A stretch of 64,000 nucleotides of DNA from Bacillus sp. FJAT-29790 (GTDB lineage: Bacteria; Bacillota; Bacilli; Bacillales; Cytobacillaceae): positions 2,204,374 through 2,268,373 of the forward strand of contig NZ_JAHNZZ010000001.1 in NCBI RefSeq assembly GCF_019039215.1, given 5' to 3'. Of the stretch, positions 1,641 through 62,578 are shown in pieces. Each line of letters begins with the position of its first letter. The stretch's first letter is position 1. Both the position numbers and the translations under genes were made by a program. The notes under the pieces were generated by a model, which saw only the letters and a list, made by a program, of their open reading frames with translations, was not told where the DNA came from and did no database searches.

Positions 1641-1665
1641 AAAAACGGCAGAATAGCCGTTTTTT
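1641..1665 (+). terminator. Terminator of yqfW
   Basis: AAAAACGGC and GCCGTTTTT arms around a six-base loop, followed by a T-rich run, begin one base after the yqfW stop codon. The T-rich run was the target of the adjacent mobile element: its left target duplication is 1664-1671. Confidence 0.9.
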
Positions 1666-1898
1666 TATTTAGACTGTATCGTAAACTTAGTTGCTATTTA
1701 ACCGAAAAGTGGTGTAGTTGATTTCCGCTCCAGGATGCTCGCTTTCCGCGGGGCGGGCGGTGAGCCTCCTCAAGCACTAAGGCTGTGGGGTCTCACCTGT
1801 CCCGCTACCCCCGCAGGAGTCTCGCACCTTCCGCTCCAATCAACGTCATACAAAATCTATCTAAAAACAACAATCATTTAGAAAACAACCTTTATTTA
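1664..1898 (+). mobile_element. MITE-like element, copy 1 (type II core) with target duplication
   Basis: The element proper is 1672-1890. Its left end GACTGTATCGTAAACTTAG and right end (reverse complement GGTTGTTTTCTAAATGATTG) are degenerate forms of the family inverted repeat. It is bordered by a perfect 8-bp duplication, TTTATTTA, at 1664-1671 and 1891-1898. The core is very GC rich and contains GCTTTCCGCGGGGCGGGCGG and a GGGGTCTCACCTGTCCC block, itself imperfectly palindromic. It has no coding capacity. The right duplication contains the stop codon of zur. Confidence 0.85.
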
Positions 1899-2306
1899 AA
1901 AACATTCAGGACAGCGTCCGTATATTTCAAATTTATGTCCTGATACATCATAGCCTTTTAGATTGTCTTGAAGTTCTTTCATCGGACATGTTTCAATTTC
2001 TTTTGTTTTTCCACAATCTAAACAAATAAAATGATGATGATGCTGTTCATGAGAACAAGTGTAACGAAAGTGCTTTTCTCCAGATAGCTCAGTCATTTCA
2101 AAAATACCAAGATCGACAAATAAAGATAAGTTCCTGTAAATTGTATCAAAGCTTAGACCTGGATATTCATCCTTCATCCAAGCAAGCACATCCCTCGCTG
2201 TTAAATATTTATTACTTTCAGCAAAAAACTGAAGCATTTCTTCCCTTTTCCCGGTTTGTTTATAGCCTTTATCCTTTAAAAGCTGCAACGCTTCATTGAC
2301 ATTCAT
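1896..2306 (-). CDS. zur: Zinc uptake repressor Zur (Fur family)
   Basis: 136 residues from the ATG at 2306, which follows AGAGGTGA at the right distance; an upstream in-frame GTG overlaps that ribosome binding site. The N-terminal half is the Fur winged helix ([11 protein letters not shown] recognition region). The C-terminal half has a His cluster (HEQHHHHF) and two CxxC pairs (CLDC near residue 94 and CPEC at the very end) that form the structural zinc site. Zur represses zinc transport when Zn2+ is abundant. Being the last gene of znuC-znuB-zur, it should also repress its own synthesis through the operator at 3986-4000. Confidence 0.9.
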
Positions 2307-2325
2307 TTGATTCACCTCTTAGTAT

Positions 2326-2342
2326 AAGGGTCAGACCCCTTT
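2326..2342. repeat. Palindromic AAGGGTCAGACCCCTT motif at the end of znuB
   Basis: A 17-base near-perfect palindrome between znuB and zur. It supplies the last codons and the stop of znuB (lysine-glycine-valine-stop). Related GGGTCAGACCC words are common in Bacillaceae intergenic DNA from my recollection, which was not checked. Confidence 0.5.
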
Positions 2343-3170
2343 AACTGTTATTTTTTTCAAAAGAATCGTTATGACCAAGATGAGAACAGCAATCATGACA
2401 ATCGTTCCGCCAGGAGCTAAATCCAAATAATAAGAAAGCGTTAATCCACCTAAAACAGAAGTTTCTCCGAATATAACTGAAAATAAAATTGTTTGTTTAA
2501 ACCCTTTAGCAATCCGTATACTTGCCGCAACAGGCAACGTCATTAAGGAAGAAACAAGTAAAATGCCGACAATTCTCATTGAAGCTGCAATGACGAGTGC
2601 AACCATGATGATAAATATAAAGTGAACACTTTTCGCTGGAATTCCAGAAGCTTTCGCATGTTCTTCATCAAATGATAATAAAAACAATTCTTTATACAAG
2701 CTGAAAATAATGACGATAACAAATAGGCTAATGATCAGAATGGTCCATAGATCCAAACGGCTTACGGCACTTACGCTTCCAAACAAATAACTGAAGAGAT
2801 CCGTATTAAATCCCTCTGCAAGGGAAATAAAAATGACGCCGAGCCCGATTCCTCCAGATAAGATAATTGGGATGGCGAGTTCTTGGTAATGCTTATAAAC
2901 AGCGCGCAATTTTTCAATAAATAATGAACCGGTCACCGAAAAGACCATTCCCATATACATTGGATTTAAGCCGCTAAAGGTCACGAATTTTTTCTCAAGA
3001 AATAGACTGGCTGCGATGCCAGCAAGAGTCACATGGCTTAGAGCATCCGCTATGAGAGAAAGTCTTCGAACGACAATAAAGACGCCTAACAGCGGGGCAA
3101 TTATGCCAATAATAATCCCAGTTAAAAAGGCATTTTGCAAAAATTCGTATTGTAAAATCCCAGCTATCAT
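2331..3170 (-). CDS. znuB: Zinc ABC transporter permease ZnuB/AdcB
   Basis: 279 residues, almost entirely hydrophobic, with about eight predicted membrane segments, typical of the ABC-3 family of zinc/manganese permeases. The GIIIGIIAPLLGVFIVVRR N terminus and the RIVGILLVSSLMTLPVAA segment are family hallmarks. Its ATG overlaps the znuC stop by four bases and GGAGG precedes it, so the two are translationally coupled. Specificity for zinc rather than manganese is inferred from the adjacent zur and the operator upstream of znuC. No substrate-binding protein gene (znuA/adcA) is in this cluster. Confidence 0.88.
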   Translation of the reverse strand: MIAGILQYEFLQNAFLTGIIIGIIAPLLGVFIVVRRLSLIADALSHVTLAGIAASLFLEKKFVTFSGLNPMYMGMVFSVTGSLFIEKLRAVYKHYQELAIPIILSGGIGLGVIFISLAEGFNTDLFSYLFGSVSAVSRLDLWTILIISLFVIVIIFSLYKELFLLSFDEEHAKASGIPAKSVHFIFIIMVALVIAASMRIVGILLVSSLMTLPVAASIRIAKGFKQTILFSVIFGETSVLGGLTLSYYLDLAPGGTIVMIAVLILVITILLKKITVKGV

Positions 3171-3967
3171 TGCACTGTTCCTCCGTGATGATGATGCTGA
3201 TGATCATGGTTATGTGAAAGGATGTGAACATCATGACCATAGAATTCGGACATTTCATCCATTTTAAGCTGTTCAAATTCAGCTGTGTTGCCATGAAAAT
3301 GCAGATATTTGTTTAAGCAAGCCACATGTGTAACCTTGTCGGAAATAGTCCCGATATCATGAGTCACTAACAAAAGGGTAATTCCTAACTTTTTATTTAA
3401 TTCATCAAGCATTTGATAAAAAGCCTGCACATTTTTCGTATCAACTCCGACAGTTGGCTCATCGAGAATCATTAATTTCGGATCACTCACTAAAGCTCTC
3501 GCGATGAACACACGTTGCTGTTGTCCACCTGAAAGCTCGCCAATATTCCTGTTTTTAAATAAAAGAAGGCCGACAGAATCGATGGCCTGAATTACTTTCC
3601 GCTGATGCTCTTTTTTCATTAGCTTAAAAAGTCCGAGCTTTTTGGTTAATCCGCTTGAAACAACTTCATAAACGGTCGCTGGAAAGCCAGTATTAAATGA
3701 ATTTGCCTTTTGGGAAACAAAGCCAATTTCATGCCAGTCCTTAAACCTGTTGATATCCTGCCCAAAAAGTTGGATATTCCCTTTTTGCATTCTAAGTAAA
3801 CCTAGAATAAGCTTTAATAATGTGGATTTCCCTGATCCATTTGGTCCAACGATTCCTACAAATGCGCCTTCATCAATCGACAAGTTAATATCCTCAAGAA
3901 CATCCTCTTTCTCATATCGATATGATAATTGATTTATTTCAATAATTGGCTTGTTATGCCCTTCCAT
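3167..3967 (-). CDS. znuC: Zinc ABC transporter ATP-binding protein ZnuC/AdcC
   Basis: 266 residues. It has the Walker A motif GPNGSGKST (near residue 40), the Q loop, the ABC signature LSGGQQQR (near 145), Walker B LMILDEPT and the switch His in LLVTHD. It drives zinc import through ZnuB at the inner face of the membrane. The last 22 residues contain nine histidines (HDVHILSHNHDHQHHHH), a tail outside the ABC domain that could bind zinc. It is the first gene of the operon, with a consensus promoter and Zur box upstream. Confidence 0.9.
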   Translation of the reverse strand: MEGHNKPIIEINQLSYRYEKEDVLEDINLSIDEGAFVGIVGPNGSGKSTLLKLILGLLRMQKGNIQLFGQDINRFKDWHEIGFVSQKANSFNTGFPATVYEVVSSGLTKKLGLFKLMKKEHQRKVIQAIDSVGLLLFKNRNIGELSGGQQQRVFIARALVSDPKLMILDEPTVGVDTKNVQAFYQMLDELNKKLGITLLLVTHDIGTISDKVTHVACLNKYLHFHGNTAEFEQLKMDEMSEFYGHDVHILSHNHDHQHHHHGGTVQ

Positions 3968-3985
3968 TTATATCACCTTTTAATT

Positions 3986-4000
3986 TAAGAATCATTCCGA
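3986..4000 (-). promoter_or_regulatory. Zur box (operator) of the znuC-znuB-zur operon
   Basis: On the minus strand TCGGAATGATTCTTA matches the Bacillus Zur operator TCGTAATNATTACGA at 11 of 14 specified bases, with A/T flanks. It lies about 13 bases downstream of the -10 element, over the expected transcription start, a position from which a repressor would block initiation. Confidence 0.7.
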
Positions 4001-4012
4001 TTTAACAAAAGT

Positions 4013-4041
4013 AGTATACAGGATGTACGAGAAATTGTAAA
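4013..4041 (-). promoter_or_regulatory. Sigma-A promoter of znuC
   Basis: On the minus strand TTTACA (4036-4041), a 17-base spacer and TATACT (4013-4018). The start would fall near 4006, just before the Zur box. The gap 3968-4145 otherwise holds only the start region of the plus-strand yqfT. Confidence 0.75.
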
Positions 4042-4145
4042 GGAAACTAGACCCGCCATCGTCCAAGGACTCTGCACAAATTGCAAAAATAAATGTCACG
4101 ATTTCTATTCATCCCTCATAAAGTACAATGGAGGAGTGATGCGAG

Positions 4146-4400
4146 ATGAAGATATTCGAAAACATCATCAATCATAAAATAAACAATATAACAACCGATG
4201 AATTACTTAAGTATGGAGATCAATTCCAAATTTCAATCACAAGGCAGCAAGCAAAAAAAATAGTTGATTATCTCCGTGGAAAACAAGTCAACATTTTTAA
4301 TGATAGCGAGCGTACTAAAATCGTCAAGGAAATTGCAAGGATAGCCGGACCTGAAACAGCTAGAGAAGTGAACCGGTTATTTACTCAATTGACAAAATAG
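4146..4400 (+). CDS. yqfT: DUF2624 protein YqfT
   Basis: 84 residues, small and highly charged, with no membrane segment. GGAGGAGTGATG lies just upstream of the ATG. Size, composition and position beside nfo match YqfT of B. subtilis, an uncharacterised DUF2624 protein. The sequence (helical, with alternating acidic and basic residues and an ARIAGPETAREVNRLF C terminus) suggests a compact helical protein. No function is known to me. Confidence 0.75.
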   Translation: MKIFENIINHKINNITTDELLKYGDQFQISITRQQAKKIVDYLRGKQVNIFNDSERTKIVKEIARIAGPETAREVNRLFTQLTK

Positions 4401-4418
4401 AATGGCCAAAAAAAAGAA

Positions 4419-4445
4419 AAAGCTGTGGAATTTGTTCACAGCTCT
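4419..4445 (-). terminator. Terminator of nfo
   Basis: AGCTGTG (4421-4427) pairs with CACAGCT (4437-4443). On the minus strand it is followed by TTTTTCTTTTTTTT, a strong intrinsic terminator tail. In the other direction, serving yqfT, the tail is weak. Confidence 0.85.
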
Positions 4446-4487
4446 TTCCTGATGTTAACAGACAAAAGTATTTATTGGTAAAAGCAA

Positions 4488-5381
4488 TTACCCTTTCAGA
4501 ATCAAATCTAACAAATTTTCGTCAAATTCCTTTGCGCCAAGCATGGCAATTTCATGTTTATATGGCGCTTTTTTATTATTTTTGTCCTCCCCGACAAAAG
4601 GTGTTTCGAGAATCTTAGGCACATCCTTTAATTGTGGGTGATGAACAATGTAGTTTAATGCCTTAAAACCGATATGGCCAAACCCAATATTTTCATGGCG
4701 GTCTTTTTTCGCGCCGCGCTCATTTTTACTATCATTGATATGAAGAACCTTTAAGCGGTCCAAACCAATCATCTTATCAAAGGATTCTAATACCCCATCA
4801 AAATCCTCGACAATATTATATCCAGCATCATGCGTATGGCATGTATCAAAGCAGACAGATAGGTGCTCATTATGTCGAACGCCATCAATGATCATAGCTA
4901 GTTCTTCAAATGATCTTCCGCATTCAGACCCTTTTCCCGCCATTGTTTCCAAAGCAATCTGAACGTTTTCATTCCCATTTAATACCTCATTTAAACCTTC
5001 AACAATTTTCTTAATTCCAATCTCTGTGCCCGCGCCAACATGAGCGCCTGGATGTAGCACAATTTGTTTCGCCCCTAATGCCTCTGTACGGTCAATTTCT
5101 GTTCGCAGGAAATTGACACCTAGCTCGAACGTATCAGGGTTTGTTGAATTCCCAATATTGATGATATAAGGGGCATGAACAACGATATCCGAGATGCCAT
5201 TTGCCTTCATATGTTTAAGACCCTCTTCAATATTAAGGTCCTCAATTTTTTTTCTTCTCGTGTTTTGCGGAGCACCTGTATAGATCATAAAAGTATTAGA
5301 GCCGTATGATACAGCCTCTTCACTAGCTGCTAAAAGCATTTTTTTCCCACTCATAGAAACATGTGAACCTAATTTTAACAT
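4488..5381 (-). CDS. nfo: Deoxyribonuclease IV / AP endonuclease (Nfo)
   Basis: 297 residues, the full length of the endonuclease IV family. It cleaves DNA 5' to abasic sites in base excision repair and acts in spore DNA repair in Bacillus. The zinc ligand segments of the TIM barrel are all visible: [28 protein letters not shown] and HINDSKN, plus a final KILETP. The gene starts 27 bases after the cshB stop codon region and probably shares its transcript. Confidence 0.95.
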
Positions 5382-5407
5382 TCTAAACTTTCTCTCCCTT
5401 TGCCCTA

Positions 5408-6721
5408 TTATTTTTTACGTTGAATTCTTCTTTCACGTTTTTTAATACTTTCCATTTGGTACTGCATTTTCTTTTTATAACCAGGCTTTACTTTGGTTGG
5501 TTTTTTTACAAGGGAAGATGCTTTTTTATCAATCTCATCTGCTTGTTTTTGGCGATTTTTCCGTTTGTTCCGGTCACCAAGATTTACCCATTCCCCTTTT
5601 TGCAAATCAGTATGATGGAATTCAATCCCCATTTTCTCAAGTTTGTTTAATGCATCTTCATCAGAAGGTTCATAAATCGTCAGTGCAATCCCTGAAAAAC
5701 CAGCGCGGGCTGTTCGGCCGACACGATGAATATAGAAGTCCAGATCCGTTGGCAGCTCATAGTTAATGACATGGCTAATCCCTTGTATATCAATTCCCCT
5801 AGCAGCAAGATCTGTCGCAACAATATACTGAAATTCAAGATCATTGATTTGTTTCATCATTTTTTTCCGTTCACGAGGATTGAGGTCTCCATGGATTCTG
5901 CCGACTTTTAGTCCTTTTCCGATTAATGAATCGGCAACTTCATCTGCCATTTTTTTCGTATTCGTAAACACAATCGCTAAATAAGGATTAAAGAGCGTTA
6001 AAGCTTCGTGAACGAGTTTTACCTTATTTCGATGCTTTGAAGGAATAATTCGATGTTCTATTTTTGCAGCTGTCACCTGCTTCGGTTCAACATGGACAAA
6101 TTTTGGATTTTCCATATACTTTTTCAAAAATGGCTTTAACTTTTCAGGAATCGTCGCTGAGAAAACGAGAATTTGCAATTTTTCTGGCATTCTTGCAGCA
6201 ATTTGATCGACATCTTCAATAAATCCCATATCAAGCATTAAATCCGCTTCATCTACTACAATCATATCAGCAGTATGAACAAATAAAGCTTTCTCTTTGA
6301 CTAAATCATTTATTCTGCCTGGCGTGCCTACAACAATCTGCGGCTGCTTTTTTAATTTTTCGATTGTTCTCTGCTTGTCCGTTCCACCGATGTAACAGCG
6401 GGCAGTTATTTCCTCCCCTTCATGGCAAAGTTCTGTCACTTTGAGGATTTCATGATAGATTTGATTCGCAAGCTCCCGTGTAGGGGCAGTAATTACGGCC
6501 TGTACTTCCTGTCTCGTATGATCAATTTTTTGCAGGATCGGCAATACATAGGCATGGGTTTTTCCTGTTCCTGTTTGCGATTGACCGATTGCACTATCAC
6601 CTTTAATAATGGTTGGGATCAATCTTTCCTGTATTTCAGTCGGCTCAAAAAATCCTAATTTTTTCACCGCTTCTATAATAAAAGGTTTAAAATCATATCG
6701 TTCAAATTTTGTTTCAGTCAT
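5408..6721 (-). CDS. cshB: DEAD-box RNA helicase CshB
   Basis: 437 residues with every DEAD-box motif in order: Q motif ([11 protein letters not shown]), [41 protein letters not shown] and [11 protein letters not shown] lysine/arginine-rich tail of about 60 residues follows the helicase core and should bind RNA. CshB helps cold adaptation, RNA turnover and ribosome assembly in B. subtilis. The ATG follows GAGGAG. The position before nfo is the same as in B. subtilis (yqfR-yqfS). Confidence 0.93.
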
Positions 6722-6826
6722 TTTGATAACTCCTCGTGATTCGATTCATTTTTAATCATCCTGTTATTATAATAAAGTTTTCATGAAATAACCACCTATA
6801 CCATCTAGATTTATGTGATCTGCTTG

Positions 6827-7068
6827 TTTTTTAAGGATCTTTTCGGATATTGTTGTTTTTAGACTTCAAAGATTGCCCGTTTATTTCCGCTGCGGGCACT
6901 TGCTTTCCACGGGGAGGGACGGGAGCCTCCTCGGCGTTACCGCCTGTGGGGTCTCCCGCTTCCCTCTATTTCCGCAGGAGTCAAGTGCCCTCCGCTCCAA
7001 TCAACTCAGATAGTTATATAAAATCATACTAATAAAGCAACAAAGTTTACAAAAACAGCCTTTTTTAA
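6827..7068 (+). mobile_element. MITE-like element, copy 2 (type I core) with target duplication
   Basis: The element is 6835-7060. The right end reads AGCAACAAAGTTTACAAAAACAGCC and the left end is GGATCTTTTCGGATATTGTT. A perfect 8-bp duplication TTTTTTAA is at 6827-6834 and 7061-7068. The core is type I (GGGCACTTGCTTTCCACGGG ... GTCAAGTGCCCTCCGCTCC), whose outer parts are inverted relative to each other. It occupies most of the 540-base gap between cshB and yqfQ. Confidence 0.9.
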
Positions 7069-7109
7069 TATAGATTCTCGAAAGGGATCGCCATTATTTA
7101 TTAACAATC

Positions 7110-7175
7110 AAATTCACCTTGGCGTATTTGCGCCCAGATTTTTTACTTTGACTTGCTCGAAAAGCCCATTAAAAA
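7110..7175 (+). repeat. Structured intergenic repeat, family 2, copy C (truncated)
   Basis: Only the first half of the family is present: AATTCACCTTGGCGTATTTG, CGCCCAGATTTTTTACTTTG and ACTTGCTCGA. After that it diverges. It lies just after MITE copy 2 and ahead of yqfQ. Confidence 0.75.
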
Positions 7176-7265
7176 TTAACGATTAGGCTTCCGATTATTA
7201 CCTAAACCAATTAGGGATAAATGCATACTTTATTATGATTAGAGTTTTTGAAAGGAGGCAAAATT

Positions 7266-7907
7266 ATGTTTCAAGGACCAAGAGCACCTTTCCCTGGAGG
7301 GATGCCCCCGCAGCCTTTTATGAATCCGATGCAGGGTCGTCCACCGATGCCACCCCCGCAAATGATGCGAGGAATGGGGCCACAAATGATGAGAGGAGCC
7401 GCTCCGCAAATGAAACGGGGCGGAGGATTACTTGCCAAGCTAATGGGCCGCGGGGGGAACCCGACTGGAGGAATGAGCGGGATTCAAGCAGCAAGCAGAG
7501 CCGCCGGAACAGGAGGCGTTCAGGCAGCAAGTAGAGCCGCTAGTTCAGGCGGAGCCGGTGCGGGTGGATTATTAAAATCCTTATCCAATCCAACAGCCAT
7601 TAACGGCTTTTTAACGAATACACAAAAAGTATTATCAACAGCCCAGCAATTCGGACCAATGGTTCAACAATACGGCCCGCTTGTAAAAAATATTCCCTCC
7701 ATGTGGAAGCTTTACAAAGGATTGAAGAATTCTTCCGATGAGCCTAAAAAAGGCAATTCCAAGAAGGATAGTAAGGAAAAGCCTTCTTCCACTAAAACAA
7801 AGGACTCTGTAAAGACGAAGAAAAAACAGGTTGATATTGAACCTACCGAACCCCAAGAAACACGAAAGGAAATAAAAGGACAATCAATTCCGAAAATGTA
7901 TATATAA
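7266..7907 (+). CDS. yqfQ: VrrA/YqfQ family protein
   Basis: 213 residues from the ATG at 7266, which has a strong AAAGGAGG eight bases upstream; an ATG at 7248 lacks a site. The N-terminal 55 residues are rich in Pro, Met, Gly and Gln with three near-repeats (PQMMRG, PQMMRG, PQMKRG). A second short repeat (IQAASRAAG / VQAASRAAS) follows, then a conserved NGFLTNTQKVLSTAQQFGPM segment, and a Lys/Ser-rich tail. This layout matches YqfQ of B. subtilis and VrrA of the B. cereus group, whose function is unknown. There is no signal peptide or membrane segment. Confidence 0.85.
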   Translation: MFQGPRAPFPGGMPPQPFMNPMQGRPPMPPPQMMRGMGPQMMRGAAPQMKRGGGLLAKLMGRGGNPTGGMSGIQAASRAAGTGGVQAASRAASSGGAGAGGLLKSLSNPTAINGFLTNTQKVLSTAQQFGPMVQQYGPLVKNIPSMWKLYKGLKNSSDEPKKGNSKKDSKEKPSSTKTKDSVKTKKKQVDIEPTEPQETRKEIKGQSIPKMYI

Positions 7908-7936
7908 AAAAGGATGCAGCTGCATTCTTTTTTATT
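7906..7936 (+). terminator. Terminator of yqfQ
   Basis: AAGGATGCAGCTGCATTCTT is a near-perfect palindrome followed by TTTTATTTT, starting at the yqfQ stop codon. Its T-tract was the target of MITE copy 3. Confidence 0.85.
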
Positions 7937-8194
7937 TTGGGTTCTGCTAAACTTGCCTGTTGATTGGAGCGGAAGGTGCGAGACTCCTCGAAAATGCTAT
8001 CGCACTTCCTTCGTGCGTGTGCAGATTCAAGGATTAAATACAGTGTCCTGCGGGAGCGGGACAGGTGAGACCCCACAGCCTTAGTGCTTGAGGAGGCTCA
8101 CCGCCCGCCCCGCGGTTCGCTGAGCATCCTAGAGTGGAAATCAACTACTTTTGGCTTAAATAGCAACAAAGTTTATAAAAACAGCCTTAATTTG
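7932..8194 (-). mobile_element. MITE-like element, copy 3 (type II core, inverted) with target duplication
   Basis: The element is 7940-8186, in the opposite orientation to copy 1. The end at 8186 reads AACAAAGTTTATAAAAACAGCC. The 7940 end is GGTTCTGCTAAACTTG. The flanks TTATTTTG (7932-7939) and TTAATTTG (8187-8194) match at seven of eight positions. The core is type II, but interrupted by a module of about 65 bases that includes AATGCTATCGCACTTCCTTC. The same module in inverse orientation is inside copy 6. Confidence 0.85.
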
Positions 8195-8356
8195 GAGCCA
8201 TGATTATATACACTGCCCCTTACGCCGCCTTTTAGTATTATTATTATCGTAAGTCTTATATAATAGTATACGCGATCATTGAAAAGCGTATTTTTCAAGA
8301 AACAAAGTAAAATCATACTTATAATATAGATGCTTAATTTAGGGGGTTATTTAAAT

Positions 8357-9295: not shown

Positions 9296-9305
9296 ATGAA
9301 TGAAG

Positions 9306-12042: not shown

Positions 12043-12156
12043 TTTCTTTTGGCTCTTTTCGCATATATTGTTGTTTTAGCCTTGAAATTTTGCCCGTTGA
12101 TTAAATAAAAATCACATTATAAAAACAACAAACTTTAAGAAAACAGCATTTCATTT
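12043..12156 (+). mobile_element. MITE-like element, copy 4 (short, core-less) with target duplication
   Basis: The element is 12051-12148. It keeps both ends (GGCTCTTTTCGCATATATTG and AACAAACTTTAAGAAAACAGC) but lacks the GC-rich core. GCCCGTTGATT runs straight into AAATAAAAATCACATT. Flanks TTTCTTTT (12043-12050) and TTTCATTT (12149-12156) match at seven of eight bases. The right duplication touches the stop codon of the acyl-CoA dehydrogenase. Confidence 0.85.
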
Positions 12157-19655: not shown

Positions 19656-19817
19656 AAAAGAATGGCTTTTTTCGCATATATTGTTGTTTTAGCCTTCAAA
19701 GTTTGCCCGTTGATTCCCGCAGGAGTCAAGTGCCCTCCGCTCCAACCAACTCAGATTATTAAATAAAATTCACATTATAAAAGCAGCAACAAACTTTACG
19801 AAAACAGCCAAAAGTAT
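19656..19817 (+). mobile_element. MITE-like element, copy 5 (intermediate deletion form) with target duplication
   Basis: The element is 19664-19809. The left end GGCTTTTTTCGCATATATTG is followed by GCCCGTTGATTCC, then directly by the right part of a type I core (CGCAGGAGTCAAGTGCCCTC) and the right end AACTTTACGAAAACAGCC. The left half of the core is missing. Flanks AAAAGAAT (19656-19663) and AAAAGTAT (19810-19817) match at seven of eight bases. It occupies the gap between ccpN and glyS. Confidence 0.88.
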
Positions 19818-22961: not shown

Positions 22962-23190
22962 AAACAAAAAACTCCCGTCTCTATGCGTTTAAGCATAGGG
23001 ACGAGAGTATACCCGCGGTTCCACCCTATTTGCTGTGATTAAAAACACAGCCACTTTATTGTCATTCCTTGACAATGTTGCTCATGAGTGCCTTCCTTAG
23101 CGCTCTATCACCTAGCTCTCACCGTCCTAGGCTCGCTTCTATAGAGTTAGTTAAGTACTTTTCTCTTTCACTGCAACTATTTTATTAATT
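22962..23190 (-). promoter_or_regulatory. Glycine T-box riboswitch leader of glyQS
   Basis: On the minus strand the leader contains the diagnostic T-box AGGGTGGAACCGCGGG (23012-23027) within the antiterminator. A mutually exclusive terminator follows (arms ACTCTCGTCCCTATGC and GCATAGAGACGGGAGT, 22971-23008, then TTTTTTG). A long Stem I with the GCGAGCC/AGAGC apical elements lies upstream. A GGC glycine codon followed by A at 23090-23092 is the probable specifier. Uncharged tRNA-Gly should favour antitermination and glyQS expression. Confidence 0.93.
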
Positions 23191-37211: not shown

Positions 37212-37224
37212 GGTGTCAGGCACC
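37212..37224. repeat. Palindrome GGTGTCAGGCACC
   Basis: A 13-base near-palindrome in the yqeW-deoC gap. This word is, to my recollection, scattered in intergenic DNA of many Bacillaceae; not verified. Confidence 0.4.
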
Positions 37225-42533: not shown

Positions 42534-42841
42534 AAAATAAAGGCTGTTTTCGCATATATTGTTGTTATTAGCCTTCAAAGTTTGCCCGTTGATTTCCGCT
42601 GCGGGCACTTGCTTTCCGCGGGGAGGGACGGAAGCCTCCTCGGCGTATCCGCCTGCGGGGTCTCCCGCTTCCCTCTATTTCCCGCTGGACACTGAATTTA
42701 CATCCTTGAATCTGCCCACGCACGAAGGAAAAGCGATAGCATTTTCGAGGAGTCAAGTGCCCTCCGCTCCAATCAACTCAGATTATTAAATAAAAATCAC
42801 ATTATAAAAGCAACAAACGTTACGAAAACAGCCAAAATAAA
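42534..42841 (+). mobile_element. MITE-like element, copy 6 (longest; type I core plus internal module) with target duplication
   Basis: The element is 42542-42833. The ends are GGCTGTTTTCGCATATATTG and AACGTTACGAAAACAGCC. A perfect duplication AAAATAAA flanks it at 42534-42541 and 42834-42841. It has a complete type I core (GCTTTCCGCGGGGAGGGACG) into which about 67 bases (42684-42750, CTGGACACTGAATTTACATC to AGCATTTTCGAGGA) are inserted. The same module, inverted, is in copy 3. It sits between dnaK and dnaJ and so is transcribed with the heat-shock operon. Confidence 0.93.
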
Positions 42842-53770: not shown

Positions 53771-53772
53771 GA

Positions 53773-54804: not shown

Positions 54805-54840
54805 TGTATTTCGCTCCGTTCATGTTACCATTCTTCTTTT

Positions 54841-55090: not shown

Positions 55091-55120
55091 ATACTTAGTA
55101 GGAAATAGGAGGGGTAGACT

Positions 55121-55255: not shown

Positions 55256-55276
55256 TGGCTACATAAGAATTTTTTG

Positions 55277-55302
55277 GGCTGCATTGCAGCCTTTTTTCTT
55301 TT
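55277..55302 (+). terminator. Terminator of yqzM
   Basis: GGCTGC / GCAGCC around ATT, followed by TTTTTTCTTTT. Confidence 0.9.
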
Positions 55303-55347
55303 GGCTAGTTTTAAGTTATCCGATGGGGGCCGAATCTTAAGTAATTC

Positions 55348-57684
55348 TTAATCTATATTATGGGTAATTACAGAAAAGGTTCCATTGTCCCCTTTAAATA
55401 CATAGGAAATTGCCCCATGCTGGTCTGTTCGCAGTACTTTTATATGTCTTACTGCCAATTTTTCGAGGATCTCCCTTTTCGGATGTCCGTAGCGATTATT
55501 TTTTCCCACTGAGATGATTGCAAGCCTTGGTTTAATTTGATCTAGAAAAGGATCGGAGGTTGAGGATTTACTGCCATGATGACCAACTTTTAACACATCG
55601 ATTTTGAGCTTTTCGTAGGAAGAAATTAGTTTTTCTTCTCCCGCCTCTTCTAAATCACCTGTAAAAAGCCATTTGATTCCCGCGATATTTGCAAATAGAA
55701 CGATTGAGCTATTATTTCTCTCTGTCTCCATCCCCATTTGCGGTGATAATACTTGAAAGAAAGCATCGCCAGAAATCCACCTTTCTCCTGCTTTCGTGAA
55801 ATGAAAAGGGATTTTCTTTCCTTTCGCTATATTTAATATCGTTTTTTCGAGTTCTGACAGTTCTTTCACCTTTGGCAAGAGCAGTTCTTTGACATTTAAC
55901 TCCTTGATGATCTCTAAAGACCCTCCAATATGGTCCATATCCCCATGGGTTAAAATTAACTTATGAATAGTTGTTATTCCTTTGCTTTTTAAATAAGGAA
56001 CGACCACATCTTTTCCAACTTCAAACTGCTTCTGTCGTTCCTTCCATTCTTCTGTATTGAATCTTAATGTACCGCCCGTATCAATTATATAATTCCCTTT
56101 TCCATGTGGCAGTTTTATTAGGATACTGTCCCCCTGGCCGACATCAATAAAGGTGATTTCCCCATACGGAGAAAGCGTATTCCCTAAGGCATGAATGATC
56201 ATAACAATCAATGGGAGAAATAAAATCTGAATAAACCTTTTCACTTGAATGAATCGCTCCCATAACGAAAAAAATATCGGCATGATCAATAAATACAACA
56301 AAAAAACGGAGAGTGAAGGCCGACCAAGTGTGAGTGTCGCAAATGGAATCAGTGAAAGCCTCCCAGCTGCATAATCCATCCAAATAATGAGTAAATTTAA
56401 TGGATTCAACAGGAGATTAATCGTTGCACCGAAAAATAAATGCAACAAAAAAAGAATGAAAATCACAGGTAAGATAAAAAGTGAAAACAGAGGAACAAAA
56501 ATCGCATTAGCAAGAATGGAGATGACGGACACTTCAAAAAAGTAAAAGAACATAATGGGAGTGGCTGCCAGCTGACAAATAAATGACGTGGCAAACAATA
56601 TAGATAGAGGGTGAGAAAACCGTTTTAAAATGATCGGCGCAGAAAATACTAATGAAAAACTAACACTAAAGGAAAGTTGAAAGCCTACTTCATATATCAC
56701 TAAAGGAGAGAAGAAAGTGTACAATACAAAAACAATACTTATCACATCAATTGTTAATAGTGAGAATTTTCTGCTCCATTTTTTTAGAGCTAAAAAAATG
56801 ATCATCATAAAAACAGCACGAATCACGGAAGGCGCGGCACCTGTTAATAAAGCATAACAAGGTAAAAACAGGAGTAAAGCTGTCGTCATCTTCTCCCTTG
56901 TCACACCAATTCGGAGGCCGAAATAATAAATCATACTTGCAAGCATGCCAACATGAAGTCCCGAAATCGCCAATAAATGGACAATTCCAAGTTTTTGATA
57001 TGATTTTAACACATCCGCTTCAATTAGATCTCGATCACCGAAAAGCAGAGCTACTGCTAATGGTGCCGTTTTTTTAGGGAAATAACTCTGTATGTATAAA
57101 ATTCCATTTTGTCTAATCGTACGAAAGAATGAAAGAGGGGTTTGCTTTTGAGGACTGCATTTAGAGAGGTTTAAATGATCAATTTTTACTATCCAAAACA
57201 TTTGGTTTCTTTTCAAATATTCTTTGTAGTTAAAAGCATTTTCGTTTGTTGCAGAAGCAGGTTCTTCGAGGCTGCCAGTTACTTGACACGCGATGCCTGT
57301 TTTTAAATTTTCTGTGATGGCCTCCTTCTCTTTCTCCGTTTTAATTTTGTATCTAATGACAAGCTTTTCACGATGATCAGATTCCTTGCCCCTAGCAGTT
57401 AACAGCTCTCCGTCTACCTTTATCTCTTCTTGAAAATAGAGGTTAAAAACAGTTTCTTTCCCTGTTAAGCGGGATTTGTTCCCTTTTTCAACAGTTTCAC
57501 CACGGACAAAGAAGAGAATAAAAATCAAGCTAAAAAAAAGAATTTGCTTACGAGTAAAATTTTTCCTTTTAGAAAGTAAAATGGCCATTAAAATATAAAC
57601 CGCAAAAAATATAAATGGATTGATAAAGGCTGCTAAAAAACCCGTAAGCGCGGAGACTGCAAAATAAATCCATCTGCTCTTCAT
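55348..57684 (-). CDS. comEC: DNA uptake channel protein ComEC
   Basis: 778 residues, full length. Two N-terminal membrane helices precede a soluble OB-fold domain (DUF4131, about 55-180), then the competence membrane domain (about 215-485, with LLAISGLHVGMLAS) and a C-terminal metallo-beta-lactamase-like domain (from about 505) with ILTHGDMDHIGGS, FTGDLEEAGE and KVGHHGSKSST. It forms the channel for transforming DNA; the lactamase-like part may degrade the non-entering strand. The frame is intact. The start has an unusually long AAGGAGAAGAAAAAGAA purine run ahead. Confidence 0.95.
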   Translation of the reverse strand: MKSRWIYFAVSALTGFLAAFINPFIFFAVYILMAILLSKRKNFTRKQILFFSLIFILFFVRGETVEKGNKSRLTGKETVFNLYFQEEIKVDGELLTARGKESDHREKLVIRYKIKTEKEKEAITENLKTGIACQVTGSLEEPASATNENAFNYKEYLKRNQMFWIVKIDHLNLSKCSPQKQTPLSFFRTIRQNGILYIQSYFPKKTAPLAVALLFGDRDLIEADVLKSYQKLGIVHLLAISGLHVGMLASMIYYFGLRIGVTREKMTTALLLFLPCYALLTGAAPSVIRAVFMMIIFLALKKWSRKFSLLTIDVISIVFVLYTFFSPLVIYEVGFQLSFSVSFSLVFSAPIILKRFSHPLSILFATSFICQLAATPIMFFYFFEVSVISILANAIFVPLFSLFILPVIFILFLLHLFFGATINLLLNPLNLLIIWMDYAAGRLSLIPFATLTLGRPSLSVFLLYLLIMPIFFSLWERFIQVKRFIQILFLPLIVMIIHALGNTLSPYGEITFIDVGQGDSILIKLPHGKGNYIIDTGGTLRFNTEEWKERQKQFEVGKDVVVPYLKSKGITTIHKLILTHGDMDHIGGSLEIIKELNVKELLLPKVKELSELEKTILNIAKGKKIPFHFTKAGERWISGDAFFQVLSPQMGMETERNNSSIVLFANIAGIKWLFTGDLEEAGEEKLISSYEKLKIDVLKVGHHGSKSSTSDPFLDQIKPRLAIISVGKNNRYGHPKREILEKLAVRHIKVLRTDQHGAISYVFKGDNGTFSVITHNID

Positions 57685-57723
57685 TTCTTTTTCTTCTCCT
57701 TCTTCTTCATTCTCCTCAAAATC

Positions 57724-57797
57724 AAATACGCCTTGGCGTATTTGCGCCCAGATTTTGCCTTAGCTTGCTCGATAAATTCCTTTAAAAGATCTGAGGC
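57724..57797 (+). repeat. Structured intergenic repeat, family 2, copy F (truncated)
   Basis: AAATACGCCTTGGCGTATTT hairpin, GCGCCCAGATTTT and GCTTGCTCGATAAATTCC, stopping at AAGATCTGAGGC. The AACTTTATTCAG half is missing. It fills the gap between comEB and comEC, separating them by about 155 bases. The two genes are close or overlapping in B. subtilis. Confidence 0.85.
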
Positions 57798-57840
57798 CAG
57801 AAAAAGTTTGACCGTGGTGTAATGTTTTTGCCCAAGAATT

Positions 57841-58407
57841 TTAGCGGGGAGTAAACAGCTTCTCAGCTTGAGCTTGCAATAATATGATCGCTTCTTTATC
57901 CTTTCCGGCTTGCTTAAGCTCATCCATTATCTTTTCAATGAATTGCCGTTTCTCTTGGGGTTGAAAATCGACTGACATTTCATTACCTTCTACTTGTTCT
58001 ACCTTTACTCCAGCCATATTGAAAAGCTCGATCGCATAAGGGTGATTTTTGTAATCCTTGGAATAATAGACTGTTTTTATCCCAGCTTGAATGATGGCTT
58101 TACAGCATTGCAGACAAGGAAAGTGAGTAACATAAATTTCGGCTCCGCTCGTTGGGACGCCAAATTTCGCACATTGCAAGAGAGCATTCATCTCGGCATG
58201 AATCGTTCTTACACAATGATTATCAATGACGTAACAGCCCTCATCTATACAATGCTCTCCGCCTGCGATGGAGCCGTTATACCCACCTGCAATAATTCTT
58301 TTATCCCTTACTATCGTCGCTCCAACAGATAATCTCGTACAAGTGCTTCTTAGCGCGAGTAAATGACTCTGGGCAATAAAATATTGGTTCCATGAAATTC
58401 TATCCAT
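57841..58407 (-). CDS. comEB: dCMP deaminase family protein ComEB
   Basis: 188 residues. The zinc site is RTIHAEMNALLQ and PCLQCCKA, with the family N-terminal RSTCTRLSVGATIV. It probably deaminates dCMP to dUMP. In B. subtilis comEB is in the comE operon but is not needed for DNA uptake. The C-terminal 40 residues are a charged extension (KDKEAIILLQAQAEKLF). It lies between comEA and comEC. Confidence 0.93.
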   Translation of the reverse strand: MDRISWNQYFIAQSHLLALRSTCTRLSVGATIVRDKRIIAGGYNGSIAGGEHCIDEGCYVIDNHCVRTIHAEMNALLQCAKFGVPTSGAEIYVTHFPCLQCCKAIIQAGIKTVYYSKDYKNHPYAIELFNMAGVKVEQVEGNEMSVDFQPQEKRQFIEKIMDELKQAGKDKEAIILLQAQAEKLFTPR

Positions 58408-58512
58408 TACATTTTTCTCTCCCTTGTATTTCTATATCTCAAAATAGTTAACTTGAACTTCCCTAATAAATACAAGTTTAATCCTGGGGAAGAAATGGGT
58501 CAATGAATTCTC

Positions 58513-59142
58513 CTATTTTACTTTAATACTGTTCTGTAATTTCTCGAACGTTTTATTGCCAATTCCACTAATTGACTTGATATCCTCAATAACCTTAAAT
58601 GGACCATTCATTTCGCGAAACTCGATAATCGCGGCAGCTTTAGCAGGCCCGATTCCAGGCAGTGTTTGCAATTCAGTTTCATTTGCAGTGTTCAGATTAA
58701 CCTTTCCATCACTCCCTCCTTGACTAGCAGGGACTGCTCCTTGTAGAATCGATCCAGATTCCTCTAACACCTCACCTTGAGCTGGGACGTATACAACCAT
58801 TTCATCCTCTACCCTCATTGCAAAATTAATCTTCGCTTCATCCGCTTTTTCAGTTAGCCCGCCAGCTTTATTGATCATGTCTATTACGCGCTCATCTGTG
58901 CCTGCTTTATATACACCCGGCTTATTCACAGCGCCCTTCACATCAACGATAACACTCTCTGCAACGGCTTTCATTTCTGCGTTTTCGTTTAGGTTCTGCT
59001 CCTCAATTCCTAACCACTCTTCATCATTTTTAATAACGCTACTCTCGTTTTCCATTGGTTCAAAAATAAAATAGATCACCGCAAAAATGATCACAATGCC
59101 TCCAGAAATATAGGCTTTGTTTGATTTTATCCAGTCAATCAT
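58513..59142 (-). CDS. comEA: Competence DNA receptor ComEA
   Basis: 209 residues from ATG 59142, six bases after AAGGAAG; the frame is open farther up without a site. One membrane anchor (about 8-28), then a SLBB domain (about 68-125, VKGAVNKPGVYKAGTDERV) and a C-terminal helix-hairpin-helix pair (NLNTANETELQTLPGIGPAK and IKSISGIGNKT) that binds double-stranded DNA on the cell surface. First gene of the comE operon and divergent from comER. Confidence 0.95.
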   Translation of the reverse strand: MIDWIKSNKAYISGGIVIIFAVIYFIFEPMENESSVIKNDEEWLGIEEQNLNENAEMKAVAESVIVDVKGAVNKPGVYKAGTDERVIDMINKAGGLTEKADEAKINFAMRVEDEMVVYVPAQGEVLEESGSILQGAVPASQGGSDGKVNLNTANETELQTLPGIGPAKAAAIIEFREMNGPFKVIEDIKSISGIGNKTFEKLQNSIKVK

Positions 59143-59230
59143 ACGAATCTTCCTTTCTTTTTTAGCATAATTCAAACACTATGTTCATATCGTATATGGG
59201 AAAGCTTGCTGGTAAAGGAGGGATGGAACA

Positions 59231-60055
59231 TTGAATATCGGAATTATTGGAACAGGTAATATGGGGAGAATTCTGACAGAAGCATTGCTTGATGGAAATG
59301 CTGTTTCCTCTTCTTCCTTAACGATTACAAATCGAACAATCAAAAAATCTTTGGAAATTCAGAAGAACTATCAAGGAGTTCAAGTAGCGGCAAATGGGAA
59401 AGATGTAGCGGAACGATCATCGCTCATCTTTATTTGCGTGAAGCCACATGATATTTACCATGTTATTAAAGAGATTTCTCCTTTCTTAACAAAAGAGAAA
59501 TGCGTTGTATCAATTACAAGTCCGATTACAGTCGAACAAATAGAGTCTGTTACCCCTTGCTCTGTTGCAAGGGTCATTCCAAGCATTACGAATCGAGCAC
59601 TCGCTGGCGTTTCATTAGTTTCATTTGGTAACAATTGTGATAAAAAGTGGAAGGAAAGAATTTGGAATTTGTGTCAGGCGATTTCAAAGCCGGTTGAAAT
59701 TGAGGAAAACATCACACGTGTCAGTTCTGATATTGTCAGCTGCGGTCCTGCTTTTTTCAGCTATTTAACGCAAGCCTTCATTCTCGCTGCAGTCAAAGAG
59801 ACGAAAATAGATCAAAAAACGGCAACAACCCTTGCAGAAGAGATGCTGATCGGAATGGGAGAACTGCTGAAAAAGGGCTTTTATACATTGCCAACATTAC
59901 AGGAAAAGGTATGTGTAAAAGGAGGAATTACCGGTGAAGGAATCAAAGTGCTTGAAAGCGAATTAGGGGAAGTTTTTGAGCATGTGTTTCAAGCAACCCA
60001 TGCTAAGTTTAAAGACGAAATCAATAAGGTAAAGGATCAATATCCACTCCCTTAA
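59231..60055 (+). CDS. comER: Late competence protein ComER (pyrroline-5-carboxylate reductase-like)
   Basis: 274 residues from TTG 59231, eight bases after AAAGGAGGG. The N terminus IGIIGTGNMGRILTEALL is a Rossmann NADP-binding motif. The C terminus has the P5C reductase dimerisation region (FFSYLTQAFILAA). In B. subtilis comER is divergent from comEA and dispensable for competence; a role in sporulation signalling has been reported. Enzymatic activity is unproven. Confidence 0.92.
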   Translation: MNIGIIGTGNMGRILTEALLDGNAVSSSSLTITNRTIKKSLEIQKNYQGVQVAANGKDVAERSSLIFICVKPHDIYHVIKEISPFLTKEKCVVSITSPITVEQIESVTPCSVARVIPSITNRALAGVSLVSFGNNCDKKWKERIWNLCQAISKPVEIEENITRVSSDIVSCGPAFFSYLTQAFILAAVKETKIDQKTATTLAEEMLIGMGELLKKGFYTLPTLQEKVCVKGGITGEGIKVLESELGEVFEHVFQATHAKFKDEINKVKDQYPLP

Positions 60056-60069
60056 TCAATATTCGGCAC

Positions 60070-60103
60070 GAAGGAGAAAACTCCTTCATCAAAATTTTTT
60101 TTT
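60070..60103 (+). terminator. Terminator of comER
   Basis: GAAGGAG / CTCCTTC around AAAA, with a run of nine T eight bases farther on. Confidence 0.7.
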
Positions 60104-60114
60104 ACACAAAACCA

Positions 60115-60204
60115 AAGGGCCAGTCCTCATAAAAGCAATATATTGTAAATTGGATTCGTTAACATCCAATTCATACAGTATATTGATAGTGAGGTCAGGC
60201 CCTT
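60115..60204. repeat. 90-bp imperfect palindrome between comER and yqeM
   Basis: Two 41-base arms (60115-60155 and 60164-60204) surround TCGTTAAC. They are complementary over most of their length: AAGGGCC, CCTCA, CAATATA, TGTA and ATTGGAT blocks pair, with small internal mismatches. It is much longer than the other terminators of the window. On the minus strand, TTTGGTTTTG follows, so it may still end the yqeM transcript. Confidence 0.8.
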
Positions 60205-60213
60205 CCTAATTTT

Positions 60214-60960
60214 TTATATTTTCCGGCAAATAAAAAAGATTCGTTCCGAATGAGCTTTCGGTGACACTGCTTCAAAATCCGCTGCTACTTCAAGCACTTC
60301 AAAACCAGCTTCCTTAAGCCACGCCTCATAAACTTCAATGGGATATGTCCGTTGTAGATGCAGCTCATCATATCTGTCATATTGGCCCGTATTTTGATCT
60401 AATACAAAGAATGAAAGATCATGCTCAACACTGTTCGGAAATTCCCCTTGATAACTGTGCCATATATAAGAAATCTCCTCTTCATTAAGAGTAAATGTCT
60501 GATTCATAAAAACCTGCATTATTTTATAAATGGAATGGACATCAAAGATGAAAATTCCACCCTTAATCAGGTGATCATTCACATTCCGAAAGGTAGCCAA
60601 AACTTCGGGCTCCGACTCTAAATAATTTAATGAGTCACAAAAAATGCCAATTAAATCAAACTGACCAAGACCTTCGAGTTCAGCCATATTTTGCTGATAA
60701 AATTGCATGTCCAATCCTTTGCTGCTTGCCTTTGATTGAGCAACTGTTAACATATCAGCTGAAAGGTCAACCCCTGTTACATCATAGCCTTCTTCAGCAA
60801 GCTTGATTGAAAGCTTTCCCGTTCCACAGGCGAGGTCAAGAACCCTTTTACCCTGAACATTGTATTTCGTTACAAGCTTGGTTACGAGTTCGACCCATTT
60901 ATCATATGGAACATCTTTCATTAACTCATCATAAAGATAGGCAAACTTCCCGTAGGTCAT
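60214..60960 (-). CDS. yqeM: SAM-dependent methyltransferase YqeM
   Basis: 248 residues. Class I methyltransferase with motif I VLDLACGTGKLSIKLAEEGY near residue 42, then VDLSADML and the FDLIGIFCDSLNYL acidic motif. It is similar to the rRNA/tRNA-modifying YqeM family, with unknown substrate. It overlaps the end of rsfS by four bases, and this coupling suggests a role in ribosome or tRNA maturation. Confidence 0.88.
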   Translation of the reverse strand: MTYGKFAYLYDELMKDVPYDKWVELVTKLVTKYNVQGKRVLDLACGTGKLSIKLAEEGYDVTGVDLSADMLTVAQSKASSKGLDMQFYQQNMAELEGLGQFDLIGIFCDSLNYLESEPEVLATFRNVNDHLIKGGIFIFDVHSIYKIMQVFMNQTFTLNEEEISYIWHSYQGEFPNSVEHDLSFFVLDQNTGQYDRYDELHLQRTYPIEVYEAWLKEAGFEVLEVAADFEAVSPKAHSERIFFICRKI

Positions 60961-61313
60961 TGGTTAAGCTCGCTTTGAACATTTTCAATTGGCGCATCCC
61001 CCCAAAGACGTTCAAGATTATAATAGCTTCTTTCATCGCGATGGAATATATGGGCAACAACATCCCCCATATCCACTAGGATCCACCTTGCTTCGTCAAA
61101 CCCTTCGATTCTTTTTACAGAGTAGCCTAGCTCTCCAGCTTTCTCTTTCATCTCCCTTGCAATTGCCTGTACTTGTTTATCCGAATTTCCATGACAAATT
61201 AGGAAATAATCTGCAATTAAAGAGATTCCTTTCATATTTAAGACAACTATATCTTCAGCTCTTTTATCATCAGCCGCTTTAACTGCGGTCAATAGTAATT
61301 TTCTTTCACTCAT
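60957..61313 (-). CDS. rsfS: Ribosomal silencing factor RsfS
   Basis: 118 residues, complete. VVLNMKGISLIADYFLICHG, EGFDEARWILVDMGDVVAHI and FYNLERLW-type (YYNLERLWGDA) segments are the Iojap/RsfS signature. It binds L14 and blocks joining of ribosomal subunits in starvation. It overlaps yqeK by eight bases and yqeM by four. The B. subtilis name is yqeL. Confidence 0.96.
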   Translation of the reverse strand: MSERKLLLTAVKAADDKRAEDIVVLNMKGISLIADYFLICHGNSDKQVQAIAREMKEKAGELGYSVKRIEGFDEARWILVDMGDVVAHIFHRDERSYYNLERLWGDAPIENVQSELNQ

Positions 61314-61884
61314 TCAATCCGTCCTCCTGATTTATAATTAAGTCATTATATGTGTAAAAAGTAGCTGGAAAAACCGGCTGTCCTTTTTTAATTAAAAATA
61401 ATATGGTATTTTTGATGGATTTTATTAAAGCTCCATCGAGACTGTTCTCCGCTATTTCACGCACTTCTTCAACGCCAGGAAAATGCCTCCCTGGTTCAAT
61501 ATAATCAGCTAAATAAATAACTTTCTCTAACGTTGTCATCCCTGTTCTTCCTGAAGTATGGTATTTGATTGCATCAAGAACTTCCTGATCCTTAATTCCA
61601 GCTTCCTTCTGAACAAGATAAGCCCCGACAGGCGCATGCCACAGTTCACTATTGAAGGAAAGGAGTTCTTGCGGCATTCCTTGTTCAATAATAATTTGTT
61701 TCATTTCCTCTTTTGGACGAAATTTGGCATAATCATGAAAGATCGCGGCAAGTTCGGCCTTTTTTTCATCGGCACCATATTTCCTAGCAAGTGCCACTGC
61801 TGACTCCATAACACCAAGTGTATGGGTGTAGCGATGTTCTGTTAATTGTTCCTTCACTATTTTTAAGGCAAGATCACGGTCCAT
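61306..61884 (-). CDS. yqeK: HD-domain protein YqeK (diadenosine tetraphosphatase family)
   Basis: 192 residues. HD metal motifs are HRYTHTLGV (His), IFHDYAKFRP (HD), WHAPVGAYL (His) and YLADYIEPGRH (Asp). YqeK hydrolyses Ap4A symmetrically to two ADP in Gram-positive bacteria. The gene overlaps nadD by eleven bases and rsfS by eight. Confidence 0.93.
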   Translation of the reverse strand: MDRDLALKIVKEQLTEHRYTHTLGVMESAVALARKYGADEKKAELAAIFHDYAKFRPKEEMKQIIIEQGMPQELLSFNSELWHAPVGAYLVQKEAGIKDQEVLDAIKYHTSGRTGMTTLEKVIYLADYIEPGRHFPGVEEVREIAENSLDGALIKSIKNTILFLIKKGQPVFPATFYTYNDLIINQEDGLNE

Positions 61885-62443
61885 ATAAATTCTTCTCCTT
61901 AATATAGCTTCTTACTGAATCCGGAACGATATAGCGAACCGTTTTCCCTTCCTTCAGACGGCTTCGGATGAGGCTAGAGGAAATATTTATTTCCGGCACC
62001 TCGGCATAAAGAATCGGATAAGGGCTTTGATGACTATAAGACGGTCGCCTAACTCCTATAAATTGAACGATGTCGAATAATTCATCGATGTTATACCACT
62101 TTGGTAAGTATTCAATCATATCTGCACCAATAATAAAATAAAACTGTTTATCAAGATGCGTTTCTTTTAGAATTTTCATCGTTTCATAAGAATAGGAAGG
62201 ACCCTTCCTTTTTAGTTCAATTAATTCAATTTTAAAATTAGGATGCCCTTGAATGGCAAGTTTCAGCAAATTCACTCTGTCTTCATCATCAATCGCATTC
62301 GACTTTTTCTTGTGCGGAGGCTCTTGATTCGGCATGAACCAAATTTCATCCAATGACATCGTGTTCAACACTTCATTAGCAATGATTAAATGTCCAAGAT
62401 GCGGGGGATCAAAAGTACCGCCTAAAATGCCGATTTTTTTCAG
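61874..62443 (-). CDS. nadD: Nicotinate-nucleotide adenylyltransferase NadD, probable CTG start
   Basis: 189 residues. With the CTG at 62441-62443 as start, the protein begins M-K-K-I-G-I-L-G-G-T-F-D-P-P-H, the T/HxGH nucleotide-binding motif that every NadD needs. AGGAGG lies eight bases before. Taking the first in-frame GTG (62371) would remove this catalytic site. No ATG, GTG or TTG occurs in frame between. IIGADMIEYLPKWYN and ISSSLIRSRLK complete the family motifs. NadD adenylates nicotinate mononucleotide in NAD synthesis. It overlaps yqeK. Confidence 0.93.
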   Translation of the reverse strand: MKKIGILGGTFDPPHLGHLIIANEVLNTMSLDEIWFMPNQEPPHKKKSNAIDDEDRVNLLKLAIQGHPNFKIELIELKRKGPSYSYETMKILKETHLDKQFYFIIGADMIEYLPKWYNIDELFDIVQFIGVRRPSYSHQSPYPILYAEVPEINISSSLIRSRLKEGKTVRYIVPDSVRSYIKEKNLYGP

Positions 62444-62462
62444 GGTGCACTCCTCCTGACTT

Positions 62463-62578
62463 TTCTTTTTGACTGTTTTCGCATATATTGTTGTTTTTAG
62501 CCTTAAATTTAGCCCGTTGATTTTTATATAAAATCAATTTGAAAAAGCAACAAAGTTTACGAAAACAGCCTTCTTTTA
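62463..62578 (+). mobile_element. MITE-like element, copy 7 (short, core-less) with target duplication
   Basis: The element is 62471-62570. The ends are GACTGTTTTCGCATATATTG and AACAAAGTTTACGAAAACAG (CC). No GC-rich core is present; GCCCGTTGATTTTT runs into TATAAAATCAATTTG. Flanks TTCTTTTT (62463-62470) and TTCTTTTA (62571-62578) match at seven of eight positions. It lies between yhbY and nadD, ending 8-10 bases from the nadD ribosome binding site. Confidence 0.88.

Follow-up and report, generated by a model that had tools for sequence, protein, structure and literature searches.

The 64,000-nucleotide stretch of Bacillus sp. FJAT-29790 that was analysed here (the window) contains seven short intergenic segments with inverted ends. 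They raise the question of which enzyme moved them and of why most of the longer ones enclose the same GC-rich hairpin. The segments most probably belong to a high-copy family of miniature inverted-repeat transposable elements (MITEs) that would be spread in trans by transposases of an IS1595 subgroup, with a conserved hairpin module in most of the long copies (probability about 0.92, judged from the sequences compared). The basis is fourfold: common ends, 8-bp A/T-rich duplications, identity of the ends with those of full-length IS1595 transposons and absence of the elements from the sites compared in relatives.

Re-reading of the window confirmed the coordinates and flanks of all seven segments in the original prediction. 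The 8-bp flanking repeats are perfect in copies 1, 2 and 6 and match at 7 of 8 positions in copies 3, 4, 5 and 7, and there is no transposase gene inside any copy. Related inverted ends, as had been proposed, are present in all seven, except that copy 3 has a left end (GGTTCTGCTAAACTTG) of a different type, by eye nearest to that of a second IS1595 subgroup. The GC-rich cores ascribed to the segments are found in most of them, but none is detectable in copies 4 and 7, and copy 5 retains the 3′ part only.

The family extends throughout the host genome. With the right-end pattern, 316 sites were found in 4.55 Mb at up to three mismatches, while the reversed-pattern control gave 0; with a 230-base MITE query, the best 40 of 390 first-look candidates were scored and showed 92 to 96% identity. 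Flanks were tabulated for 59 distinct copies with both ends measured, the loci being chosen by end or core match and the flanks ignored. Three of these are window copies; the other four window copies failed the end filter. A perfect 8-bp duplication borders 26 of the 59 copies, compared with a mean of 0.31 and a maximum of 2 when flanks were re-paired (500 shuffles). A further 17 match at 7/8, seven at 6/8 and nine below, so that 43 of 59 reach at least 7/8. Perfect duplications of 7 bp or of 9 bp were seen in none of the 59 copies at either length. Re-paired flanks reach at least 7/8 in only about 4% of cases, and the seven of seven window copies at this level are therefore not a chance result. 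Target sites are A/T-rich, and T(A/T)6A is favoured among the perfect duplications, with T as the first base in 22/26 and A as the eighth and last in 20/26. The copies measure 54 to 355 bp, and their main size class lies near 228. Transposition with an 8-bp duplication, which had been predicted from the window, is thus well supported.

The sites themselves are largely intergenic. Five of the 59 copies have N in their flanks; among the 54 sites reconstructed from the rest, three lie inside an open reading frame of at least 100 aa, and such frames cover 77% of the window. The genes on either side are ccpN and glyS for copy 5, dnaK and dnaJ for copy 6, and yhbY and nadD for copy 7 (gene names by NCBIfam). 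The intact element is absent from all 28 readable dnaK–dnaJ loci of relatives (29 fetched at dnaJ), where the 5′ junction shows a single TTTATTTT in 17, TTTATTTC in seven and other sequence in four; several of these relatives carry other inserted repeats there. At yhbY–nadD the element is absent in 7/7 relatives, and in one of them (G014) the aligned flanks lie 8 bases apart. The gap at the copy 5 site is too short for the element in five relatives, as is that at the copy 4 site in two of three; the third (G002) has a 444-base gap filled by another repeat without MITE ends. Exact junctions at copies 4 and 5 are not claimed because these alignments are loose. Another intergenic repeat (GTCTAGCTCCAGCGCCTAGAGGCTCGAGGTC...CAAGGCGCTTCCGCTTTTC and variants) occupies some of the same sites in relatives (L323-L328; L364:2447-2901). 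In the window, an AGGAGG motif precedes nadD on the minus strand (62440-62471), and copy 7 lies directly upstream of it.

Several flanks hinted at a preference for terminator T-tracts, and the signal proved weak. A hairpin of -11 kcal/mol or lower stands beside the site in 8/59 elements and 112/2166 control A/T sites (Fisher p 0.012). At thresholds of -9, -7 and -5 kcal/mol the counts are 8 versus 132 (p 0.029), 9 versus 168 (p 0.048) and 10 versus 209 (p 0.074). As four energy thresholds were tried, no claim is made.

Transposons with the same ends were found outside the host. A plasmid of Niallia sp. Man26 carries an end that is identical at 22 of 23 positions to the MITE left end, and a gene annotated as an IS1595-family transposase follows at a distance of 58 bases. 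The Niallia plasmid transposon (L138:2501-4265, 1765 bp) has MITE-type ends GGCTGTTTTCGCATAGATTGTTG and GGCTCTTTTCGTAAGAATTGTTG with TTTTTAAA on both sides. Its transposase scores 54.9 bits with PF12762 (cut-off 27), 206.6 with NF033547 (75) and 51.1 with NF050000 (28); the PF12760 zinc ribbon, at 21.8, is below its cut-off of 25.4. Within the ends there is also a DinB/mycothiol-transferase-like passenger gene (L138:3623-4147). A match to the Niallia transposase occurs in 109 of the 193 genomes of the host's family, and 12 of the 30 IS1595 loci fetched have the end pair around the transposase together with a 7/8 or 8/8 duplication; three of the 12 seem to represent a single insertion that L138 also has (100% identical protein, equal length and duplication). 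Type A MITEs and several of the IS1595 transposons show a similar asymmetry between their two ends (..CGYATAGATTGTTG versus ..CGTAAA..TTTGTTG). In a second IS1595 subgroup, ends of the form GGCTCTGTTAAA...TGTTGAT with perfect 8-bp duplications were seen in 4/19 loci inspected.

Since full-length IS1595 transposons in relatives and on the Niallia plasmid share both the inverted repeats and the 8-bp A/T-rich duplications, the guess of IS1595 in the original prediction was right. Its claim of a single type of transposase is not quite exact, because copy 3 joins a subgroup II-like end to a subgroup I end. IS1595 elements are usually flanked by 8-bp duplications and, like the window elements, have A/T-rich duplications and ends starting with GG (PMC8101967, as excerpted); for a composite transposon of ISEc69, of the same family, 8-bp A/T-rich duplications with T and A preferred were obtained experimentally (PMC7835479, as excerpted). 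The partner elements differ from the window elements in encoding a transposase, with zinc-binding and DDE_Tnp_IS1595 domains.

Several observations weigh against this assignment. Sixteen of the 59 copies match at 6/8 or less, and 14 of the 30 IS1595 loci are fragments, lie at contig ends or lack an end pair having a 7/8 duplication. The 3′ side of the dnaK–dnaJ site has diverged in relatives, one of which (G019, locus L322) seems to keep an eroded core there (collinear matches, E 3.1 and 9.3). The host genome itself has 0 matches to PF12762, 0 to NF033547 and one weak match to the Niallia transposase protein (E 4.9e-4), so that the mobilising enzyme is deduced from relatives. Among six members of the genus with more than 200 core candidates each (loose first-look counts, with at most four per genome scored), only G029 has a near full-length subgroup-I transposase. 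The host assembly is 98.68% complete, in nine contigs with some N runs, and a transposase copy may have been missed. Such runs lie within MITE copies L038, L039, L041, L056 and L120, as if assembly gaps fall in the cores. Given the lack of an IS1595 domain match in the host, its copies look orphaned and are probably stranded, no working transposase having been found. MITEs do not as a rule require an autonomous partner in their own genome.

The IS1595-type transposase is envisaged to bind the ends of about 24 bp, cut a T(A/T)6A target with an 8-base stagger and join the element, and gap filling would then produce the duplication. Host copies would probably not move unless the enzyme arrived on a carrier, such as a plasmid resembling that of Niallia.

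Other families were considered as the source. ISL3 was the first idea, given the 8-bp A/T-rich duplications and GGCTCT ends, and ISL3 elements in the host's family do have 8-bp duplications and ends like GGCTCTATAATATTTGTTGGGGT (L075, L080). It was dropped because the host has no ISL3 domain match; moreover, the MITE-type end pair (GGCTGTTTTCG) surrounds the transposase in 0/34 ISL3 loci of the genus and family. That the MITEs are ISL3 members is therefore scarcely credible. A lone one-sided MITE-type end match was seen in 13 of these 34 loci (six mismatches allowed). Among the ISL3 elements with GGCTCTATAATATTTGTTGGGGT ends, the duplications are perfect in L075 and L080 and match at 6/8 in L076. 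REP/RAYT systems resemble the window elements in consisting of palindromic intergenic repeats, but the single Y1 (RAYT-like) transposase gene of the host (L061:1417-2076) is flanked by unrelated GGTGTCAGGCACC palindromes (L061:1090-1230), one of which also occurs at window position 37212; the gene and these palindromes look like a separate REP/RAYT system. The 230-base MITE query found no match in phage records at E up to 1e-5.

The window elements are short and non-coding, with inverted ends and a target duplication, mostly intergenic and present in many copies, as are bacterial MITEs generally, such as bcr1 of the Bacillus cereus group and the Tn3-derived TIMEs. TIMEs differ in having 38-bp Tn3-type ends and 5- or 6-bp duplications (PMC4133298, as excerpted). 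The likeness to bcr1 is one of description, not of sequence, and the Bhal-1 repeat of B. halodurans, of 74 bp, is likewise known here by description only (both PMC2267715, as excerpted).

Table 1. The seven MITE copies of the window, their cores and their flanking repeats. HMM, hidden Markov model.
Feature	Position with flanks, or of core	Strand	Element	Remarks
MITE copy 1	1664..1898		1672-1890, 219 bp	core type B; TTTATTTA on both sides
Core of copy 1 (GC-rich hairpin)	1717..1844	+		core HMM positions 1-129, E 4.2e-37
MITE copy 2	6827..7068		6835-7060, 226 bp	core type A; TTTTTTAA on both sides
Core of copy 2	6879..7005	+		core HMM positions 1-129, E 2.8e-21
MITE copy 3	7932..8194		7940-8186, 247 bp	long-form core reversed; flanks TTATTTTG/TTAATTTG
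Ends of copy 3				left like IS1595 subgroup II; right of subgroup I type
Long-form core of copy 3	7959..8145	-		HMM hits 8145-8045 (E 2.3e-19) and 7988-7959 (E 1.4e-4)
MITE copy 4	12043..12156		12051-12148, 98 bp	core deleted; flanks TTTCTTTT/TTTCATTT
MITE copy 5	19656..19817		19664-19809, 146 bp	core partly deleted; flanks AAAAGAAT/AAAAGTAT
MITE copy 6	42534..42841		42542-42833, 292 bp	long-form core 42588-42777; AAAATAAA on both sides
MITE copy 7	62463..62578		62471-62570, 100 bp	core deleted; flanks TTCTTTTT/TTCTTTTA

The hairpin core is about 129 bp long and has sharp borders, GTTGATT...AATCAAC. Information content, measured over 87 contig copies, is 0.7-1.4 bits at the seven positions of the left border and 0.6-1.1 at those of the right, compared with 0.0-0.4 at the twelve flanking positions. 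As the original prediction supposed, it is widespread: at E of 0.001 or below, the host's family has matches in 182 of its 193 species and in 23 of its 25 genera, and in many of the species the candidate sites number in the tens to hundreds. Scanning named genomes with a pattern gave at least 119 core stretches, and the 80 of them listed include Bacillus, Neobacillus, Peribacillus, Priestia, Oceanobacillus, Sporosarcina, Lysinibacillus, Scopulibacillus and other genera. A contig labelled Arthrobacter beigongshangensis (L245) also bears the core; its GC content of 0.42 suggests a mislabelled or contaminating Bacillales contig. The supposition that such cores had not been described as transposable elements agrees with the searches of open-licence literature, including a term search of PMC10969869, in which no description of these repeats or of the core was found; subscription journals were beyond reach.

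The core is shared with elements that have other ends and so is not confined to these MITEs. Only the IS1595 subgroup I end pattern, on both sides, was found in 45 of 65 host copies; eight contig loci have subgroup II ends with a uniform tight spacing of 19 nt on the left side and 33 to 39 nt on the right. Ends of the GGGACAAAA type occur in L099 and in four contig loci, and one carrier has GGCCACTGAAAAAG ends on both sides. In IS1182 elements of Peribacillus and B. badius, which have their own transposase family and their own ends, the same core follows the left end and precedes the start of the transposase. In the three IS1182 carriers L097, L098 and L202 these features align as one block, which places the core in the transposase leader. 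One-sided end-pattern matches near cores were not counted as evidence, because random 100-nt stretches match class I (two mismatches) in 120/2380 cases and class II in 39/2380. No core was detected in the 30 IS1595 loci fetched (E below 0.001). The module between the MITE ends, conserved in the MITEs and not found in the IS1595 transposons examined, may be a portable cis-acting DNA hairpin that several element families have adopted.

Some cores are longer. In this form an extra arm of 56-59 nt is found at one fixed place, between CCCGCAGGA (or CCCGCTGGA) and GGAGTC. It occurs in host copies (window 42691-42748), on a Paenibacillus plasmid (L100) and in L230 and L350, of which one is from a relative and one from a Bacillus contig. 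In copy 3 the arm separates two collinear HMM hits, and in copy 6 the second hit (42748-42777) is weak taken alone (E 0.12). Other copies have been shortened. Of the eight copies below 150 bp, seven still show GTTGAT or more of the core border, of which nothing is left in the 54-bp one. In some short copies the hairpin has been deleted between direct repeats, as in L032, where GTTGATTTCCGCTCCAATCAAC is left. Palindromes tend to be lost at replication.

The fold was examined in an alignment of 65 copies less than 90% alike (simple similarity ratio). A 26-pair structure leaves 94.4% of cells paired. Changes on both sides affect 17 of the 26 pairs, in 161 cells (shuffle mean 43.3, 0/500 as high), and sliding the pair partners gives 12 to 41 such cells, a comparison in which the structure has some advantage because it was derived from the same alignment. 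Five cores folded as single-stranded DNA gave z-scores of -1.5 to -4.8. The unpaired stretches CGCTTTCC and GGAGTC are nearly invariant across the 65 divergent copies. One pair (columns 65-90) is T.G in 63/65 copies; the remaining 25 pairs have 15 G.T cells versus 30 A.C cells, and the variable pairs have 143 alternative Watson-Crick cells versus 5 G.T, 16 A.C and 53 other. In single RNA strands wobble (G.U) pairs are normally a common intermediate. Their scarcity here is therefore read as DNA-level pairing or as correction of the arms, and it hints at pairing at the DNA level.

These data bear on what the core is. A tentative reading is that it is a portable hairpin folded in single-stranded DNA and kept by Watson-Crick covariation, present in the MITEs of two IS1595 subgroups, in IS1182 and in other elements across Bacillales, and of common benefit to its carriers. 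A transcribed structured RNA, such as a riboregulator spread by the MITEs, would also show strong stem covariation, and the position in the IS1182 transposase leader and the constant T.G pair, as RNA wobble would appear, agree with it. If the RNA came from the opposite strand, the 30 A.C cells would read as G.U, which the count allows. In the other 25 pairs, however, G.T cells do not outnumber A.C cells, and the Rfam matches of the one core locus searched (E up to 5) are weak and lie far below the cut-offs; at gathering cut-offs no family was reached in the window apart from a T-box leader (RF00230, 98.8 bits, 22994-23180, minus strand). An RNA is accordingly considered rather unlikely.

Covariation could also arise without selection, if template switching corrected the palindrome and kept its arms complementary while homologous recombination kept the cores alike. 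The predominance of Watson-Crick combinations among the double changes fits such correction, as do the hairpin deletions between short direct repeats, which point to a hairpin at replication. It leaves the near-invariance of the unpaired stretches unexplained, and elements whose flanks and ends are unrelated have retained the core; we regard it as possible but doubtful. If the core were a mobile unit in its own right, inserting into other transposons, this would account for the sharp borders, the unrelated flanks and the 36 of 87 contig copies that had no end of the six types looked for within 450 bases. No duplication was seen around the core itself in flanks read by eye rather than systematically, and the border kept by most short copies is what deletions would leave. 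To our knowledge, no enzyme moves the core alone, and such a unit is improbable. For the portable DNA hairpin, persistence may come from aiding the spread or the tolerance of its carriers, or recombination may simply keep the copies alike.

The assignment of the ends to IS1595 makes the origin of these MITEs testable. The unusual feature is that one folded core, whose function is a prediction only, is common to elements of unrelated transposases, which sharpens the question to why such transposons retain one folded module. If a common benefit exists, it might lie in coupling transposition to replication or in shielding neighbouring genes, and a cis module common to unrelated transposons would then be a new kind of mobile-element part.

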